A stretch of 64,000 bases of DNA from Microbulbifer sp. YPW1 (lineage in GTDB: Bacteria > Pseudomonadota > Gammaproteobacteria > Pseudomonadales > Cellvibrionaceae): contig NZ_CP055157.1 of NCBI RefSeq assembly GCF_013367775.1, positions 3,670,001 through 3,734,000 on the forward strand. The letters are read 5' to 3'. Both the position numbers and the translations under genes were made by a program. This document shows, one piece after another, positions 1-8,475 of the stretch; positions within the stretch are counted from its first letter, which is position 1; each line of letters begins with the position of its first letter. The notes below the pieces were generated by a model. The model was not told where the DNA came from, made no database searches, and saw only the letters and a program-made list of their open reading frames with translations.

Positions 1-3
1 CCT

Positions 4-1575
4 ATGTTCCAGTTTAACATTATGGAGCTGACAGCTCTTTGTGGTTTAGAGTCAGAATATGTTGCGTTAATTATCGAAGCGTTTTCTTCTGAAATTAATG
101 AAGGAATGGATGGGTTTAATAGCGTCGATGATTTTAACTATAAGAACGCATTTCCCATTCTTAAGCTAGAAGAAGATAGCTATGTTTCATTTCAGGGGTA
201 TAGCATTTGGGAGTCTCAATATGAAAGTCCTTTCTTTTGGTTCAACTCAGACAAAAGGTATAGGAGTCTTGCAAGTAAAAATAGAGGAGCTTTTACTGAA
301 GACTTCACGGCCGAAAGGTTGTCAGAGGTTTTCACTGAAAACAATGTGTATACAAATATAGATATATTTGACGGGAAGAATAAAGCTGCTGAAATTGATG
401 TCTTTGTTGTATTTGGAAACGCAGCAATTGTGATTCAGGCTAAATCAAAGAAGCTAACAATTGATGCTCGCAAGGGAAATAGTCTGCAGCTAAAGGAAGA
501 TTTTAAAAAGGCCGTTCAAGACGCCTACGATCAGGCTTATTTATGCTCAACCCTGTTAGATAAAGAAGGTGTGGTACTCAAAAATACTGACGGGGATATG
601 GTACACCTAAGGAATAAATTCGACGCTATATATCCTATATGCGTGGTTTCGGACTATTACCCGGCTCTTGCGGTACAAGCTAGAAATTTTCTTAAATATA
701 AGGCTTCAGGCAAGATTAAAGTGCCATACGTTATGGATGTATTTCTTGTTGATCTTCTAGCTGAAATCCTTGATACCCCTCTGTTTTTTCTGGATTACAT
801 TAGGAAAAGAGCGAGTTTCGGTGAGTCAATTTTATCTAATCACGAGCTGGTAATACTCAGCACCTATCTTAAGCAAAACCTCCACTTTGACGATAATCCC
901 GACTTGGTAGTATTAGAGGATAATATTTCTTCAGATTTGGAATTGGCTATGCTCGCAAGAAGAGAGGGTGAGGACTGCCCCTCAACTCCTCCAGGCATGC
1001 TCACAATTCACCAGGGAACTCACATAGGATCCATAATTGATGATATAAAATGTTCTGAGGAATTTGGATTACTTAACTTGGGCTATCACTTTCTTTCTTT
1101 GGGCGGTGAAAGTATTGGCGCACTTAATGATGCAATTGAGAAAATGATTCGCTTGTATGAGAAGGATAAAAGACATCACGATATAACAGCGCCATCAGTA
1201 GAACAAAAAACCGGCCTGACAATCCACTGCAACGAAGATCCCCTTGATTTAGCCTATAAGAAGTTGATCACACACTGTGAAAAGAGGAAATATTCAGTAG
1301 CAGCAGAGACCTGGCACGGTGTCAGTTTTAGTCCTTTGAGAAGACGGTTTAGATTTGCAACATATCACGCCTCTCCACATCAGCAATCTGCTGAAATGGA
1401 TGGTCTCGTATCGGATTTACCTTCTTTAGCTGATGCTCGCAAGATTGAGAACGGGAAATTTAAATTTTCCTCAAGAAATAGCGCAATAAATAAAGTTGCA
1501 AAAGTTGGTCGAAATGAAAGGTGCCCATGTGGCAGTGATAGAAAATACAAAAAATGCTGTTTAGGCAAATATTAA
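4..1575 (+). CDS. NERD/Mrr-like nuclease-related protein with C-terminal SEC-C zinc motif (start uncertain)
   Basis: 523 residues from the first visible ATG, three bases into the window, so the true start may lie upstream. Residues about 95-200 resemble the nuclease-related (NERD/Mrr, PD-(D/E)xK-like) fold: E130-I-D132, a hydrophobic strand, then Q145-A-K147, the usual QxK form of the catalytic core. The last 20 residues form a SEC-C zinc-binding motif with cysteines at 507, 509, 518 and 519. SEC-C tails occur on SecA and on many proteins of conflict systems, where they probably mediate protein or nucleic-acid contacts. The gene is AT-rich and is followed by three more AT-rich genes on the same strand. 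Nuclease activity is inferred from the motif only; the middle 300 residues are unrecognised. Confidence 0.7.
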   Translation: MFQFNIMELTALCGLESEYVALIIEAFSSEINEGMDGFNSVDDFNYKNAFPILKLEEDSYVSFQGYSIWESQYESPFFWFNSDKRYRSLASKNRGAFTEDFTAERLSEVFTENNVYTNIDIFDGKNKAAEIDVFVVFGNAAIVIQAKSKKLTIDARKGNSLQLKEDFKKAVQDAYDQAYLCSTLLDKEGVVLKNTDGDMVHLRNKFDAIYPICVVSDYYPALAVQARNFLKYKASGKIKVPYVMDVFLVDLLAEILDTPLFFLDYIRKRASFGESILSNHELVILSTYLKQNLHFDDNPDLVVLEDNISSDLELAMLARREGEDCPSTPPGMLTIHQGTHIGSIIDDIKCSEEFGLLNLGYHFLSLGGESIGALNDAIEKMIRLYEKDKRHHDITAPSVEQKTGLTIHCNEDPLDLAYKKLITHCEKRKYSVAAETWHGVSFSPLRRRFRFATYHASPHQQSAEMDGLVSDLPSLADARKIENGKFKFSSRNSAINKVAKVGRNERCPCGSDRKYKKCCLGKY

Positions 1576-1747
1576 AAATTTGGAAAATCTCTCTTTTAAT
1601 TAGAGCGAGTGGAGTCAGATAAATTTTGTGGCATAAAGTTGATTCAACGTGTGTGATGCCAACATCGTGATCTGGCCCATTGAGTTGACCTGTGATGCGT
1701 AGAAATTGCTTGCGGAGTTGGGGCACTAATGAATCGAGTCTAGATAA

Positions 1748-2893
1748 ATGAACCTAGAAGATAAAATTAATGGTCTGAACGAGCACTTCTTTTTTAAGGA
1801 GTTCACATATTCTAAAAATACCTTTAAGCGCCCGGATGGCCAAGAGGTTGAGATCGCTGATAGCATTGTTTACTTGGACGAAATATCGTTTATTTTTCAG
1901 CTCAAAGAACGAAATAATACTTTTCATAGCACTGAAGAAAAAGAAAGGAAATGGTTTAAGAAAAAAGTGCTTAAATTGGCAACGAAACAAATAAGGGATA
2001 CAGTTTCGTACATTAGAGACTATAAAAATGTTGTCCTGTCGAATAATAAGGGACACTCTATTGATATCTCGCTAGATAAATTGAAATCCCCTCACAAAAT
2101 AGTGATTCATAAATCCTCTGAACTCCTTCCTCAAGACTGTCAGAACACAAAATTTCACATTAGTGATTCTGTGGGTATTATTCACATTGTGCAGGAGCAT
2201 GACTATCTTGGCTTGGTACATTATTTGTTGACTCCTTCTGAGGTTTTTGAGTATTTTTTGTTCAGAGGCATGCTGGTTTATAAGCACGGTAATAATGTTA
2301 ATTCTATTCCAGAGCCAGCTTTGCTTGGTCAGTACTTGGCCGGCGATGAAGAAAGTTCACCTTCAGTGAAGTTCATGCAGCACATTGCTCAACTTAATAG
2401 AGAAGTAGAATCATGGGATATGACTGGTATTATTAAGCTATTCCCAGACAGAATGGTCGGTGAAGGGGGAGCTACGGATTACTATTTCATCGTAAAGGAA
2501 ATCGCTAAGCTAATGCGGAACGAGCTTTCCGCATTTAAGCAAAGGTTTATGCTTTCTTGGAATGCAGCAAAAGGCGATGAATCTGTTCTGCCTTATAGAT
2601 TTCTGGTGCCTAGATGTGAATGTAGCTTTCTATTTCTTCCTTTACCTCGAAGCGAAAAGGAAAATCGCCGAGATGCACTTATAAATTTTACCTATGCAAA
2701 CAAGTACGATCTCAAATCAACCAAGGCTATCGGTGCTTCATTCGTTGCCTCGGGAGATGGTTGGCAAGATGTTGAATGGTGCTATATAGAATCGCCTTGG
2801 GTTCAAGATGATGAATTTGATAAGGTACTTAGGGAAAACTATCCTTTTCGAGAAGTAAAAGAAAAGAGAATTGGTCGTTATGGTTTCGATTAA
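1748..2893 (+). CDS. Hypothetical protein with a possible N-terminal PD-(D/E)xK-like core
   Basis: 381 residues, no signal peptide or membrane segment. I do not recognise the family. Near the N terminus E18, D38 and Q51-L-K53 are spaced like the E...D...QxK residues of Mrr/NERD nuclease-related domains, with D38 and QxK on adjacent predicted strands. A lysine-rich helix follows (about 61-90). The C-terminal half is acidic and aromatic with no familiar motif. It lies 172 bp after the SEC-C gene on the same strand and shares its AT-rich composition, so the two may work together. The nuclease reading rests on motif spacing alone. Confidence 0.55.
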   Translation: MNLEDKINGLNEHFFFKEFTYSKNTFKRPDGQEVEIADSIVYLDEISFIFQLKERNNTFHSTEEKERKWFKKKVLKLATKQIRDTVSYIRDYKNVVLSNNKGHSIDISLDKLKSPHKIVIHKSSELLPQDCQNTKFHISDSVGIIHIVQEHDYLGLVHYLLTPSEVFEYFLFRGMLVYKHGNNVNSIPEPALLGQYLAGDEESSPSVKFMQHIAQLNREVESWDMTGIIKLFPDRMVGEGGATDYYFIVKEIAKLMRNELSAFKQRFMLSWNAAKGDESVLPYRFLVPRCECSFLFLPLPRSEKENRRDALINFTYANKYDLKSTKAIGASFVASGDGWQDVEWCYIESPWVQDDEFDKVLRENYPFREVKEKRIGRYGFD

Positions 2894-3211
2894 AGGTGCT
2901 TAATATGTGGTTGAGGCAGATCAGAGATATCGCATTTGTTTTGGATCCCGTTTATTTTTGAGTTCTTTTATTTTCAAATTTTTTCGATAATTGTGGTCAG
3001 AGTAATTTTTTGTCGCTATATGGAACAGTTGGTTTAGGTAGCAAACCTTTACTGTGGCCCGAAATATCGATTTGCGTGCATCGGATTGAGGTCCATATAG
3101 GCCAGTCAAATATCGGGGTGGCACTTTATGCTACCATGGGTCCGCTGGTAAAACCTTACTCTGATTCCAAGATTTCCAGATCGATTTTGACCGACATAGT
3201 TTTTAATTCAA
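2894..3211. other. AT-rich intergenic stretch
   Basis: About 318 bp between two island genes. It contains T-rich runs near 2955-3010. One open frame crosses it (3010-3267) but overlaps the next gene out of frame and has no recognisable features, so I do not call it. It probably holds the promoter of the AlbA_2 gene, but no clean -35/-10 pair is evident. Confidence 0.4.
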
Positions 3212-4564
3212 ATGGTAGTTATGCCTCTAACACAACTGAACAACCTGCGAGAGTACGAGCTAATTGAGCGAATGGCCCTTTTTACCGATGTGAATGCAGT
3301 CGTATCAGGTGTTTTTCGAGGTGTCTACACAGAGAATAATAATCAATGGTCAATGCTGCTAGGCGTAATTACGCTGGATGGCAGCATGGACTGCAGGAAA
3401 TTATCCCCTTGTCATTATAAGTATCCGAAGTATCAGTTTGTTTGCCGGTCAATAGTGGGATCGACGTTGGCTGAGTTGATCAGGGGGCTTGAAGGCAATG
3501 CTGGTCTGTCCATTTTTGGCATTCCCGACTTGGGTAAACGAGAATCTAACCTGACCTGGACAGAGAGTTTAATTCCAAGTCACGCTCATGAGGAGATGGT
3601 TCCCATCCGACGCCTCTCCTCCCGTGTATGCTCCGATGTGCATTATCACGATAGTAAGTTGGTGGCGTATGGTATGCCGTTTCACCGGTCGGCGTTTTCA
3701 TTTATAAAAGAGTTCTTTGGATGGGATAAATTTCACGGTTCTAGTGATGGCAGAAAAGGTGAGCTTTTCATTGACATTCCCGATCGGCGAGGCCGCCTAG
3801 TTCTATCTGAAGAAGATATTTCTTTTCACTGTGGCGATGACGATGAGTTATCAGTCGTGGGTGCCATTGACGGCGATCAAGTTTCCTTAGTGAGCCCACA
3901 AGATAAATATTATTTCGAGCAGGAGAAAGCCCTGGATGTAGAGCTATGGTTAGTGACAAACACCAATGAGATTGTTGATTACTGCTCTTCAACCGAATGG
4001 GAATATCGATATGGCAAAGAATTGAATAACACTGATCGAACACAGCTATTGGATACTATTTCGGCAGGAGAAAGTGAACACTGCGAATTTAAGACATACA
4101 TCGATCTCGTCAATAAAGACACTAAAGCCTTTGAGTTGGAAAAAACGGTATGTGCGCTTTCCAACCACCAGGGTGGCAAGCTGTTTATTGGTGTAGATGA
4201 TGAAACCCTCATTGTTGGGATTAATGAGAGATGCAAGAAAGGTTATAAATGTCTGCCTAGAGAAGCTGCAGAGTCCTACCAAAAAGCTGTTGAGAAGCGC
4301 TTGCAGGAGTCACTGGCCAAGAATAAATGCTTCAACACCTTCCTCATCGAACATAATGAGCTTATTGTTCTAGTCGTGAATGTACACAAATCCAATGGCC
4401 TCAATTATCTAGTTTCAACAAGGGATGCCTATATCCGGCGTGGTGCCTCTTCACAGAAAATGACACCGACAGAGATTCAGGCTTTTCCTGCTGAGCGAGA
4501 TGCGTTCGGGCGTGAGTTTTTCGCGACGGAATTCAGCGCAGAGTGGGTGCCTACTGATGGCTAG
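3212..4564 (+). CDS. Schlafen AlbA_2 domain-containing protein
   Basis: 450 residues. The C-terminal part (about 285-410) is an AlbA_2 (Schlafen-type) domain: a GESEHCEFK segment (286-294), then the FELEKTVCALSNHQGGKLFIG run (307-327) ending in an acidic GVDDE, the usual AlbA_2 signature. Such domains occur in Schlafen-like nucleases and in prokaryotic regulators and defence proteins. Here the domain is C-terminal and the first 280 residues are unrecognised, whereas common bacterial versions carry it N-terminally followed by a GHKL-like or winged-helix region. Two ATGs (3212, 3221) could serve as start. It sits between the nuclease-like pair and the SMEK gene, all AT-rich and on one strand. 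Confidence 0.7.
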   Translation: MVVMPLTQLNNLREYELIERMALFTDVNAVVSGVFRGVYTENNNQWSMLLGVITLDGSMDCRKLSPCHYKYPKYQFVCRSIVGSTLAELIRGLEGNAGLSIFGIPDLGKRESNLTWTESLIPSHAHEEMVPIRRLSSRVCSDVHYHDSKLVAYGMPFHRSAFSFIKEFFGWDKFHGSSDGRKGELFIDIPDRRGRLVLSEEDISFHCGDDDELSVVGAIDGDQVSLVSPQDKYYFEQEKALDVELWLVTNTNEIVDYCSSTEWEYRYGKELNNTDRTQLLDTISAGESEHCEFKTYIDLVNKDTKAFELEKTVCALSNHQGGKLFIGVDDETLIVGINERCKKGYKCLPREAAESYQKAVEKRLQESLAKNKCFNTFLIEHNELIVLVVNVHKSNGLNYLVSTRDAYIRRGASSQKMTPTEIQAFPAERDAFGREFFATEFSAEWVPTDG

Positions 4565-4744
4565 TATTCAGTATTGGAGTCCGATATTGGGCTCGGAGTA
4601 AAATTGTGACGTTCCATGCCTCTATGGAATCTACTGTCGAAAAGATTGGACTGACTCAAACATTCTACAAGTATCTGAGCTATATAGGCGCGCCTTATGA
4701 ATAAACTGTTAGGTGGTATTTAGGCGCATGAGTAAGGATTTATT

Positions 4745-5743
4745 ATGACAATTAAATCAGCAAAGAATTTTGAAGAGATCGTAATGTATCTATCTGTGCT
4801 TAGATACATATTTAAATCTAGAAGTAAGCGCGGTTTATATGATTTAAATAAGCAAGCAGAGCCATTTTTTAAAAATCTATTCAATCTCATTTATTCTTGG
4901 GATCTTATGGATTTGAATGAAATACAAAATAATTATCCAGCTATAGACTTAGGCGACAAGAAAGAAGGGGTTTGTGTACAGATTACTGCCGAAAGAGGGT
5001 CGCCAAAAATAAGAAGAACCATAAAAAAATACAATGAAAAGATGTTGTATAAAGAATATGGACGATTAGTTTTCTTTATTCTTACAGACAAAAAGGCGTA
5101 TTCATCTGAATTTGACACAAAAAATAAATTTGAGTTCAGCAAAGAGCGTGATATATGGGATATAGATGATGTCTTAGAGGTGGTTGAGAATGCTGATTTT
5201 GACACCATAGAATCAGTACACTCCTTTCTAAAGAAAGAACTTTCATCTATAGTCAGGCTGCTAGCCGATAAGGGTAGTTTGCTTTCGCAAATAGAAGATA
5301 TCAACGGTATCCAGCCCAAAAACTCATTGGGTTTTTTACGACATTTGGAGTTCGATGCGGATGAATTAGAGCAAGGACACACCGAAGTCTTGAATCTCTA
5401 TAACAAGATAAATGCTCTATCTATTCGAAGCCGAGAATATTTATATGTCTTGTTGACTAGGGCTCACACTGAAAGTGTGTTTGGAGGTGATAGGTTTTAT
5501 GCTCTTCCTGCAGATATAGAAAGCTATGCGGGATTGTCAAGAGACGAGGCGGTAGAAGAATGTCAGATCTTGGAAGCGAATAACTTGGTTTATTTTGAGA
5601 ATGAAGATTATCCACCAAGAATAGAGATATTTCGTCCCATGGATGTTGGCATTGATATGTTTGTCATGTTGAAAGAGTATCTGGATGAAGATAGCTTTAA
5701 GAGCCTTATCATCAAATGTGACTTTAGTAGCCTGGATGGCTAG
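4745..5743 (+). CDS. SMEK domain-containing protein
   Basis: 332 residues with a clear AAGGA ribosome site 6-10 bases before the ATG. The N-terminal 150 residues match the SMEK domain pattern: an opening helix, a 'NNYPAIDLGD' motif, then a 'GVCVQIT' strand and a lysine-rich 'IRRTIKKY' helix. SMEK domains are found in bacterial conflict loci, often beside nucleases or in ABC three-component systems, and are thought to be a nuclease-like or sensing module. The C-terminal part looks helical, possibly winged-helix (about 215-300). It is the last gene of the AT-rich block, and RAYT-associated repeats begin 18 bp after its stop. Confidence 0.65.
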   Translation: MTIKSAKNFEEIVMYLSVLRYIFKSRSKRGLYDLNKQAEPFFKNLFNLIYSWDLMDLNEIQNNYPAIDLGDKKEGVCVQITAERGSPKIRRTIKKYNEKMLYKEYGRLVFFILTDKKAYSSEFDTKNKFEFSKERDIWDIDDVLEVVENADFDTIESVHSFLKKELSSIVRLLADKGSLLSQIEDINGIQPKNSLGFLRHLEFDADELEQGHTEVLNLYNKINALSIRSREYLYVLLTRAHTESVFGGDRFYALPADIESYAGLSRDEAVEECQILEANNLVYFENEDYPPRIEIFRPMDVGIDMFVMLKEYLDEDSFKSLIIKCDFSSLDG

Positions 5744-5760
5744 CGAAGTGCTTCACTTGA

Positions 5761-5788
5761 AAATAAATGGGGACAGATCAACATTATG
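5761..5788 (+). repeat. RAYT-associated short repeat, copy 1
   Basis: A short AAATAAATGGGG-(A/T)-CAGATCAACATT sequence 18 bp after the SMEK gene. The same sequence recurs at about 5908 and 6261. In many gammaproteobacteria this kind of 'AAATGGGGTCAGA' sequence abuts REP-associated tyrosine transposase genes, and both other copies here sit directly beside transposase remnants. Confidence 0.6.
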
Positions 5789-5907
5789 CCGTTAATTGAA
5801 TTGGGTTCGTTAAACGCAAATATTATGATTTGAACCCATTTCTCTTGCGCTGTTTGTACGGTGAGGGTATTCACCTGACTGTTGCCTCGTAGGTTCTGTC
5901 TAGTTTC

Positions 5908-6008: not shown

Positions 6009-6308
6009 ATGGCCAGATTACCGCGCCTCGGGCCTGCAGGGATTCCGCAACATGTTATACAGCGGGGTAACAACCGGCAGGTTTGCTTCTGTTCAGAACA
6101 GGACATGATCGCCTACGCTGGTTGGCTAAAACAGTATGCAAAGAAATTCGATATTCAGGTACATGCCTGGGTGTTGATGACCAATCACGTCCACCTGCTG
6201 GTAACCCCGCAGTCTGATCAGGGTGTTAGCAAGATGATGCAGGCCCTTGGGCGTATTTACAATAAATGGGGTCAGATCAACATTATGACACCCATTAGCA
6301 CCCACTGA
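6009..6308 (+). pseudogene. Truncated REP-associated tyrosine transposase (RAYT), copy 1
   Basis: The frame encodes the start of a Y1_Tnp/RAYT transposase: MARLPRLGPAGIPQHVIQRGNN, then 'HAWVLMTNHVHLLVTP' with the HVH metal-binding (HUH) pair. Full-length relatives are about 200-300 residues. Here homology stops after about 85 residues at 'ALGRIYNKWG', where the sequence runs into another copy of the AAATAAATGGGG repeat. The remaining residues to the stop are repeat-derived. The catalytic tyrosine region is missing, so it is inactive unless helped in trans. Confidence 0.8.
6261..6290 (+). repeat. RAYT-associated short repeat, copy 3 (inside copy 1 of the transposase)
   Basis: Third copy of the AATAAATGGGGTCAGATCAA sequence. 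It replaces the rest of the first transposase and begins the leader of the second remnant, so it marks the recombination point between the two units. Confidence 0.65.
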
Positions 6309-6356
6309 GTTTTCCTTCGATTAGTCTATGGCCATAGCAAAAAAGGAAGGGAAAGT

Positions 6357-6562
6357 TCGATGGCCAGATTGCCGCGCCTTGGACCTGCAGGGATTCCGCA
6401 GCATGTCATACAGGGGGCAACAGCCGGCAGATTTGCTTCTGTTCAGAGCAGGATATGATCGCCTAGGTCGGTTGGCTAAAACGGTATTCAAAGGAGTTCG
6501 ATATTCAGGTACATGCCTGGGTGTTGATGACCAATCACGTCCACCTGCTGGTAACTCCGGAC
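6357..6562 (+). pseudogene. RAYT transposase remnant, copy 2
   Basis: Near-repeat of the first RAYT, starting again at the ATG before 'ggccagattgccgcgcc' and ending at 'cacctgctggtaac'. Several single-base indels (for example around 'acagggggcaacagcc') destroy the frame. At 6563 homology stops and a segment leading to the membrane-protein gene begins. The same junction occurs before the second membrane-protein copy at about 9488. Confidence 0.75.
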
Positions 6563-6578
6563 ATATGAGGTTGGGTTC

Positions 6579-7259
6579 ATGGATGGGAAACCACTAGACA
6601 CAGAAATTGATCACCACACGGCTAAATTGATCGTGGGATTGATCGCTTTGTCACTGGCGAGTTTTACGGACTTTCTGACGCCTGGGGTCAGTATTAGCTC
6701 GATTAGTCTGTCATATCATTTAACGGATAATGCCCGAGATGTATTCGTTGGATCTCTCTGCGTTATATCGGCTTTTCTCTGGTCGTATAATGGCTATTCC
6801 TTGTTTCAAGCTGTCTTAAGTAAGGTCGGAGCTGTCGCTGCCGCGGCAGTGGCTTTTTTTCCGTGCGATTGCTTTGCAGGTCGGGGTATTGAAGTGGTGG
6901 ATAGAGAAACCACGGTGGCTGGGATTGTCCATACGGCATCGGCAATTTCAATGTTCATTATCCTTGCAATTTTTTGTTGGCTGTTTTATCGGAGAGCTAA
7001 AGAAAAAAACTCTAAACAGGCGAAGATTAGGGGGCTAATTTATAGAATTTGCGCTGTAGCTATTGTTGGCGCAATGGTCGTGCAGTTGCTCGATTCTCTA
7101 CAGTGGGTAGATTTTAGCGGTATTACTCACCGGTTGACTTACTATGTCGAAGCGACAGGTTTGTTTGCCTTTGGTATTGCCTGGGTGACAGCTAGTCGCA
7201 TGTTGCCATTTATTACTAATGAAGATGAGCACATAAAAATCGAGCTTTCTGCAAGGTAA
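6579..7259 (+). CDS. Multi-pass membrane protein of unknown function, copy A
   Basis: 226 residues, GAGG eight bases before the ATG. About six hydrophobic segments are visible: near residues 12-30, 48-66, 70-92, 107-130, 147-165 and 180-200. An FFPCDC motif lies in the third loop. I do not recognise the family. A close paralogue lies at 9510-10190; the two differ mostly in the loop after FFPCDC and in scattered substitutions. Both are preceded by the same transposase scar, so one arose by segmental duplication. Composition is intermediate between the AT-rich island and the GC-rich chromosome. Confidence 0.65.
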   Translation: MDGKPLDTEIDHHTAKLIVGLIALSLASFTDFLTPGVSISSISLSYHLTDNARDVFVGSLCVISAFLWSYNGYSLFQAVLSKVGAVAAAAVAFFPCDCFAGRGIEVVDRETTVAGIVHTASAISMFIILAIFCWLFYRRAKEKNSKQAKIRGLIYRICAVAIVGAMVVQLLDSLQWVDFSGITHRLTYYVEATGLFAFGIAWVTASRMLPFITNEDEHIKIELSAR

Positions 7260-7383
7260 CTGATTTTATGCGGTTGTGTTCATTTCTCGGTATTGGTTAT
7301 TTTCTGTTCTTTTGCGAGTAAATTCAGCGGCGATTCAGTTGTGTCGGGTTAGAAAGCAGGTGTGAATCCAAGGAAAACGCACC

Positions 7384-8475
7384 ATGCGCCAGATCCCATA
7401 CCGATTACTCGCCGCTCTCACCATCACTTTGACGCTCGGTGGCTGTGTCACCTACCCAGCTACGCCGGTGGTCGTCGGGAACACCTATGTCCGGAAGGCT
7501 CCTCCGGTTTACTCCTATTCAGTGATCACTGATCCCGGCTATCGCTACTACGACGATACCCTCGGCGTTTACGTATTCTACGACCGTAGCGACGTTTTCT
7601 ATCGACAGGGGCATTACTATCGTTGGCACCATGACCATTGGATCAGTGCCAGTCACTGGCGTGGCCCCTGGTATCCGGCCCCGAATCTGTATATCTCGGC
7701 AAACTTCAACGATCGCTGGCATACGCGCTTGCGCCGCCACGGCCATCGCTATGCCGGAGGACACCACGACAGACCGCCGCGCCGGCACGGACATAACGAC
7801 GGTTACAAGCGGCGGGATTCGCATGACGGTAACGCGCATCGAGATGATCGTCGTGGGAAGGGCCTGGATCGTCGTGAGAAGGGCTGGGAACGTCATGAGA
7901 GGGGCCAGGATCAACGTGAGAGGGTCCGGGATCGTCGCGAGTTGGTTCTGGACCGTCGTGAGAAGGTTCGGGATCGTCGTGAGAAGGGCCTGGATCGTGG
8001 CCGAGGCGGCGAACATGGGTTTGCTGGCATAGCCGAGCCCAAGCGGCGGGCGCTTCAGGTGGAGAATCGGAGCGGGGATCGCCGTGTTGAACGCCGGAAT
8101 CCTCCTCGAAATCCAAGTCGGAACGAGCGCGCAGTGAAATTTGCGGACAAGCCAACCGGCAATCGCGGCCCACGAGTTGTCCCTGCAGTAGAGCGTCCGG
8201 CAACTGATCGCCGCACGGTGCGTGAGAAGCCCAAGCAACAAAATAAGCGCAGCCATCCCAAGCCCCAGCGCAATGCGCCAAAAGATCGCCGCAATGAATC
8301 CGCAAAGGCAGCTCCGCACGAGGAGGGCGAGCAGCCAAAGAACGAGCGACCAAAGAAAAAAGAAGCGGAAAAGAAAAAGAAGTCCCAAAAGAAAACGGAT
8401 AAGCGCGATGAGGTGCGCATGGTGCGTGAGCCGCTTAATGGCCGGTTCAATGAAGCTCGCCGTCGGATCGATTGA
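7384..8475 (+). CDS. Lipoprotein with aromatic N-terminal domain and basic repeat tail
   Basis: 363 residues, AGGA ribosome site. A lipoprotein signal ends with LTLGGC (Cys21). Residues 22-125 are rich in Tyr, Trp and His ('YRYYDDTLGVYVFYDRSDVFYRQGHYYRWHH' broken into strands), as in small periplasmic or outer-membrane YXW-type proteins. From about 130 the protein becomes extremely basic and charged: seven copies of a 7-residue unit around 'DRREKGL', then Lys/Arg/Pro-rich sequence to the end. The tail is probably disordered and could bind polyanions such as LPS or nucleic acid; this is inference. Long open frames on the other strand and in frame 2 are by-products of the GC-rich repeat. Confidence 0.7.
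   Translation: MRQIPYRLLAALTITLTLGGCVTYPATPVVVGNTYVRKAPPVYSYSVITDPGYRYYDDTLGVYVFYDRSDVFYRQGHYYRWHHDHWISASHWRGPWYPAPNLYISANFNDRWHTRLRRHGHRYAGGHHDRPPRRHGHNDGYKRRDSHDGNAHRDDRRGKGLDRREKGWERHERGQDQRERVRDRRELVLDRREKVRDRREKGLDRGRGGEHGFAGIAEPKRRALQVENRSGDRRVERRNPPRNPSRNERAVKFADKPTGNRGPRVVPAVERPATDRRTVREKPKQQNKRSHPKPQRNAPKDRRNESAKAAPHEEGEQPKNERPKKKEAEKKKKSQKKTDKRDEVRMVREPLNGRFNEARRRID
7846..7992 (+). repeat. Seven tandem copies of a 21-bp unit
   Basis: Inside the lipoprotein gene, a 21-bp unit based on GATCGTCGTGAGAAGGGCCTG is repeated seven times without gaps (starts 7846, 7867, 7888, 7909, 7930, 7951, 7972), with a degenerate eighth at 7993. Units 1, 2, 6 and 7 are nearly identical. The unit is a multiple of three, so copy-number changes would alter tail length without breaking the frame. 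Confidence 0.85.

Follow-up and report, generated by a model that had tools for sequence, protein, structure and literature searches.

The AT-rich four-gene block at the left edge of the window—that is, the whole 64,000-nucleotide stretch analysed, comprising bases 3670001–3734000 of the 4.58 Mb single-contig genome of Microbulbifer sp. YPW1—is best read, with moderate confidence, as cargo carried just downstream of prpF, in a core defence hotspot of fixed position that begins with an orphan attI. The flanks of this site are fixed, its cargo changes and is enriched in defence genes, and it contains an attI-like sequence that elsewhere in the genus heads attC cassette arrays without an adjacent integrase. 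By an orphan attI is meant a sequence that looks like a copy of an integron capture site without an adjacent integrase. The four genes are separate nuclease genes that probably act against phage. A broader proposal is advanced tentatively, at somewhat less than even confidence: the genus may possess a distributed integron, in which attI copies at fixed places, each at the head of its own cassette array, are served by one or two integrases, the prpF copy having become an antiphage locus.

Layout and composition of the block

The original prediction, made from the window alone, described four intact genes on one strand. All four do lie on the same strand, and genes 2–4 are intact inside the window according to the list of open reading frames (Table 1), but the window begins inside gene 1; the full gene (positions −611 to 1575, 728 aa) starts 611 bases farther left. 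The insert extends approximately from −797 to 5761, and its GC content of 39.8%, as against 59.9% across the 18.9 kb on its left, agrees with the AT-richness originally seen, with gene 3 (45.2%) being less AT-rich than genes 1, 2, and 4 (38.9%, 38.1%, and 35.7%, respectively). The intergenic gaps are 172, 318, and 180 bp in order, unlike those of an operon. The possibility that the genes continue a longer ordinary operon starting upstream of the window was not borne out, as the upstream genes are of a different kind, namely prpF, ending at −1068, and other prp-type genes. These names were assigned by eye, that of PrpF being also based on a Pfam match to prpF fragments in congeners. At the right edge, RAYT debris had been placed 18 bp past gene 4; the sequence at that point is a RAYT-associated repeat, and the broken RAYT frames do follow, from 6009 onward. 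RAYT-associated repeats are also present in the gap between genes 1 and 2 and at the edges of the cargo blocks of several congeners.

Table 1. Features of the block and of the prpF hotspot. Positions are those of the window, negative positions lying to its left, unless a congener locus is named.
Feature	Position	Strand	Basis
First attI-like site, outside the window; GTTA 70 bases before the start codon of gene 1	about −807 to −672		
Gene 1, NERD PD-(D/E)XK nuclease domain and C-terminal SEC-C zinc motif (part inside the window)	1–1575	+	Pfam, conserved residues
Gene 2, 381 aa, N-terminal half modelled as an N.BspD6I/FokI-type PD-(D/E)XK nuclease	1748–2893	+	Model, conserved residues
Gene 3, 450 aa, with a Schlafen AlbA_2 domain (residues 287–418) and no assignment for the N-terminal half	3212–4564	+	Pfam
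Second attI-like site; GTTA at 4708–4711, 37 bases before gene 4	4592–4716	+	Profile search
Gene 4, 332 aa, SMEK restriction-endonuclease-like domain and C-terminal winged-helix domain	4745–5743	+	
RAYT-associated repeat, right edge of the hotspot; also after the cargo in congeners	5762–5839	+	
Two broken, partly duplicated RAYT (Y1 transposase) copies	6009–6597	+	By eye; Y1_Tnp matches of congener cargo-region ORFs
Conserved right flank, lipoprotein-like gene, delimiting the hotspot	7306–8475	+	By eye
Partial prpF 3′ ends, L061 (oriented)	2077–2686, 4843–4959, 7285–7709		
Partial prpF 3′ end, L062	7242–7768		
Partial prpF 3′ end, L063	5352–5911		
Partial prpF 3′ end, L064 (oriented)	8190–8306		

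The four proteins

Judged from their sequences, the four proteins each have a nuclease-type domain or motif: NERD, a FokI/BspD6I-like QxK motif, AlbA_2, and SMEK with a winged helix, respectively. Pfam bore out the domains originally called, namely NERD and SEC-C in gene 1, AlbA_2 in gene 3 (E 6.3e-18), and SMEK_N in gene 4, where it is the only family above the cut-off. The Pfam and PADLOC scans of gene 1 took the 523-aa part inside the window, and the searches of family and class genomes used the full-length protein. In gene 1, E304, D337, Q350, and K352, along with cysteines 712, 714, 723, and 724, are identical in all 30 aligned sequences. Gene 2 matched no Pfam family above the cut-off; its model shows a D38...Q51xK53 arrangement in the nuclease-like N-terminal half, and E18, E33, E35, D38, Q51, and K53 are identical in 34 of 34 aligned sequences. 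The conserved acidic and QxK active-site residues of PD-(D/E)XK nucleases are present in both genes.

PADLOC named no known system for genes 1–3. The available text on short prokaryotic Argonautes describes nuclease partners with DUF4365 and SMEK domains, and the active site proposed for one of them, TmuRE, includes Q62 and K64 (PMC10810196). The block resembles these partners, as described there, in its SMEK domain and in a QxK pair as in TmuRE. Unlike them, it shows no Argonaute or APAZ domain in the Pfam scan of genes 1–4, gene 4 having neither an APAZ domain of its own nor an Argonaute partner among these four genes, as a short Argonaute SMEK system would, and gene 4 has a winged helix after SMEK.

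Distribution of the four genes

The four genes had been proposed to form one undescribed system, in which they would act as effectors, a regulator/nuclease, and a sensor, a proposal that depended on their co-occurring elsewhere. As far as the search reached, they do not. Among 144 genomes of the family, gene 2 was found only in this one; gene 1 was found in 78 and at full length in 2, nearly all the partial matches being limited to the C-terminal part with the SEC-C motif; gene 3 was found in 11, near full length in 5; and gene 4 was found in 5, with the full length in this genome only. Among the matches listed, no other of these 144 genomes has two of the four genes at one place. Of the 340 class genomes, 3 contain gene 1 (E ≤ 1e-30) and 1 contains gene 4 (E ≤ 1e-15), and plasmid records yielded genes 1, 2, 3, and 4 in 35, 4, 1, and 93 cases, respectively. 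Furthermore, 35 loci from elsewhere—16 gene 2 loci, 8 plasmid stretches, and 11 loci from genome searches, several of them short—were probed for all four genes. Only the gene used to find the locus was present at 34 of them, and the remaining one (L117), with a broken gene 2 relative, gave a weak AlbA_2 match across 53 aa. Because the genes were not found together in the 144 family genomes, the 340 class genomes, or these loci, a single four-gene system is not supported, and the roles assigned within it lack a basis.

The neighbourhoods of the relatives differ from gene to gene. Gene 1 relatives in three genomes (L067, L129, and L130) are flanked by unrelated genes; a RAYT-like gene follows the one in G058 (L067). 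Gene 3 relatives lie close to or overlap other same-strand genes at three of four loci (L093–L095), one such neighbour being an ATPase, and the SMEK genes of a Rhizobium plasmid and of G134 overlap a small gene, followed in the plasmid copy by an ATPase. None of these larger gene rows contains genes 1 and 2 at the loci examined. Genes 3 and 4 may be parts of larger systems elsewhere, and given the operon-like neighbours of their relatives, they are the two least certain to act independently. Gene 2 is flanked, in a Burkholderiales genome (L106), by GTTAGG-type repeats resembling integron cassette ends.

A defence hotspot downstream of prpF

A match to prpF was obtained in 47 of the 48 genus genomes, the 48th (88% complete) giving just 39 bases of flank. 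When the 20 kb past prpF were taken from 20 of these genomes, cargo of about 3–14 kb was found next to prpF in all of them, and the right flank was matched in 19; in L061, only sequence further right matches. When the cargo at these 20 loci was compared with genes 1–4, one protein proved weakly related to gene 3, and none to genes 1, 2, or 4.

The number of PADLOC families matched at E ≤ 1e-10 was 327 for 117 cargo ORFs versus 15 for 117 control ORFs sampled out of 191 further downstream at the same loci; these totals are of families, not proteins, and among the controls the HEase family matched eight proteins and the others one each. Congener cargo was found to include complete pairs of Gabija (GajA, E 2.8e-300; GajB, 8.2e-252), Thoeris (ThsA, 8.5e-199; ThsB, 2.2e-73), SIR2-HerA (1.1e-153 and 2.6e-138), and PDC-M01, the Lamassu gene LmuB (2.4e-199), Vsr with a methyltransferase, Ppl, PDC-S06, and a ThsB, as well as weaker matches to an OLD/AriA-type and an NsnA-type protein. 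Of the 20 cargo proteins put through PADLOC one by one, four had no match at 1e-20. Two proteins of about 630 aa with nearly identical starts occur at the hotspot of two congeners (L060, 17464–19356; L063, 3412–5292), and are probably the two members matching the PADLOC NERD+UvrD model.

The prpF spot accordingly combines the conserved flanks and the variable, defence-enriched cargo of a core defence hotspot. Such hotspots are known in Pseudomonas aeruginosa and Escherichia coli (PMC10250203, PMC10121019), and in the available text of those accounts they are alike in their fixed core-gene flanks and variable, defence-rich cargo; the prpF spot differs from them in that at least 12 of the 48 genus genomes have an attI-like site at its head. 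Genes 1–4 are read as defence genes because the spot they occupy is a hotspot across the genus, where congeners carry known defence systems. Thus, the defence character originally suggested is upheld by location and by nuclease-type folds and motifs, rather than by a known system. In 4 of the 20 congeners, partial prpF 3′ ends, 71–87% identical, lie between cargo blocks (Table 1). These point to a second entry route, by recombination anchored in prpF, and are possible fossils of stepwise acquisition by that route.

attI-like sites at the prpF spot

A 35-bp direct repeat, overlooked in the original prediction, precedes both gene 1 and gene 4. A search for its pattern allowing up to 3 mismatches gave no other occurrence in this genome, and the 3′ end of the repeat is shared with the attI region adjoining the first of the two integron integrases (3.09 and 2.95 Mb). 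In congeners, a profile of seven sites detected further ones, themselves outside the profile, in the stretch from prpF to the first cargo gene (E 1.6e-11 in L046, 4.3e-5 in L050, and 0.0021 in L055), and a profile made from prpF-spot sites alone recovered the attI adjoining intI (E 9.9e-7). With one intI-linked attI as the query, the prpF spot was reached at best with an E of 0.37, all five non-self matches being located there. In the reverse direction, nine intI-adjacent attI sites were made into a profile and searched against 460 kb; the five best matches were all prpF-spot sites: those of G099 (1.9e-12), G076 (7.3e-7), G067 (8.3e-5), and G110 (3.7e-4), and the window site before gene 4 (4678–4711; 0.0022). 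Since the genus site model was built including prpF sites, this intI-only test alone is independent. The site before gene 4 was also matched by a profile of non-prpF orphan sites (4677–4711, E 4.5e-5), and that before gene 1 is diverged, being missed by the intI-only profile and matched with E values of 0.0019 (orphan profile) and 0.034 (combined profile). The prpF locus therefore carries putative attI sequence, with a strong match before gene 4 and a weak one before gene 1.

Where found, the attI-like site precedes the first cargo gene, with about 270 bp between prpF and the site; in genomes with Gabija, Thoeris, or SIR2-HerA cargo, no attI-like prpF site is among the matches listed. In this genome, two attI-like copies bracket genes 1–3. 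No intI lies next to attI at prpF, the integrases over the family cut-off being at 2.95 and 3.09 Mb only. A genus-type attC was not detected in the window gaps (best 5.0 bits, E 1.7, with filters off), nor did a second, insensitive attC finder report one there. Thus, the window cargo having no recognisable attC, genes 1–4 are not established as cassettes. Compared with a sedentary chromosomal integron, of which this genome has two, the prpF spot lacks intI and, in this genome, attC, its attI-like site being the one shared element.

Integrons and orphan attI sites across the genus

The two integron integrases of this genome exceed the family cut-off, are encoded by frames without stops, and are accompanied by long cassette arrays at 3.09 and 2.95 Mb, both loci consisting of intI, attI, and attC arrays. 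At these loci (contig G000:C1, about 3095000–3105000, L013, and 2953000–2963000, L014), the cassette genes are mostly 100–175 aa and AT-rich, and one intI immediately follows a gene that by eye is groEL-like, an arrangement also present in G074 and G068 (L175 and L177).

The site model matches 41 of the 48 genus genomes, with 164 matches at E ≤ 0.1, among which 48 distinct places were examined. Within the up to 3 kb examined upstream (E ≤ 0.01), intI was near full length at 9 of these places, was present as a piece at 2 (60 aa in L144; 25 aa, E 0.004, in L149), and was not found at 37. In the single-contig genome G110, intI lies beside one of six sites. For attC, a covariance model with a low background was built from 27 attC sites of this genome. 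Across 544 kb, with the two known arrays set aside, it gave clear attC sites at prpF spots only, namely those of G076 (5), G099 (2), and G077 (1), together with three weak matches in G110 and G074. Downstream of non-prpF orphan sites, attC occurs on the same strand at 19 of 27 testable places, and one further place ends with its contig; at the other 8 of the 27, no attC was found within the 1.5–5 kb examined.

Over 44 distinct sites, conservation averages 1.23 bits per column for the 30 bases that precede GTTA and falls to 0.18 beyond it; these sites were required to contain GTT followed by A or G, so the full conservation of those letters is partly selection, but the later drop is not. A drop directly after GTTA is the break expected at an integron recombination point. 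Upstream sequence is shared at the prpF locus (10 genomes) and at six other orphan loci, in at least two genomes each, suggesting that orphan sites are fixed and inherited. This genome has another orphan attI-like site (G000:C1:2253031–2253137, L163), with attC downstream and no integrase found, and G106 has four tandem attI-like sites within 9 kb, with genes between them and one weak attC (G106:C24:355493–364266, L161).

Integrons typically have one attI near intI, and attI outside class 1 is poorly described, according to the available text of one account (PMC9024848). In Xanthomonas, integrase-less attC arrays (CALINs) occur at several loci conserved across species and can be mobilised in trans by an integrase, in the available text of their description (PMC12444791); in Microbulbifer, integrases may likewise act in trans on such arrays. 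The Xanthomonas CALINs are described there as attC clusters, whereas in the present genus most arrays examined begin with an attI-like site. A Marinobacter strain is recorded with a CALIN and an In0 (PMC10295459). No account of attI copies heading integrase-less arrays was found in searches of open-licence papers.

Origin of the cargo

That genes 1–4 cooperate as one defence system is highly improbable: a common strand, low GC content, nuclease-type domains throughout, and adjacency in this genome speak for it, but the genes are not together elsewhere, gaps of 172–318 bp separate them, and an attI-like site stands between genes 3 and 4. The same components could instead have gathered at an ordinary accretion hotspot through homologous or illegitimate recombination anchored in prpF and RAYT repeats, the attI-like sequence being a relic without a role. 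This account, which is possible if rather doubtful, gains from the partial prpF 3′ ends that four of 20 congeners (L061–L064) have within their cargo, the RAYT-type repeats at cargo edges, and the cargo without clear attC at 17 of 20 loci. It fits poorly with a site that precedes the first cargo gene and whose conservation stops at GTTA, and with the three congeners that have clear attC sites at the prpF spot.

Each orphan attI might also be what remains of a complete integron that lost its intI, CALINs having been proposed to be degraded integrons, in the available text of that proposal (PMC9024848). Upstream intI pieces at 2 of the 48 places (L144 and L149) would agree with such decay, but 37 have no piece at E ≤ 0.01 within the up to 3 kb examined and 9 have a near full-length gene; G110 has intI at just one of six sites, and merely about 270 bp are available between prpF and the site. 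Loss of this kind is considered unlikely.

On the preferred reading of a core hotspot headed by an orphan attI, the intact IntI enzymes, encoded approximately 0.57 and 0.72 Mb away, would once have brought cassettes to the site in trans. Useful defence genes would have been retained as their attC sites decayed, and later modules would have entered by recombination through the repeated attI and prpF sequences. The prpF spots of G076 and G099 still hold attC cassettes, and this genome has none left, or may never have had any. Genes 1–4 would work independently as nucleases against phage or plasmid DNA or against the infected cell's own nucleic acid, and partners kept by the relatives of genes 3 and 4 may have been lost here.

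Overall, the four genes are additional nuclease candidates, one of them from a family without a Pfam entry. Should fixed loci indeed retain attI copies that integrases serve in trans, integrase-less arrays would be working branches of the integron, and the capture capacity of a genome would be larger than thought. The link between integron capture and defence islands would then be directly testable.
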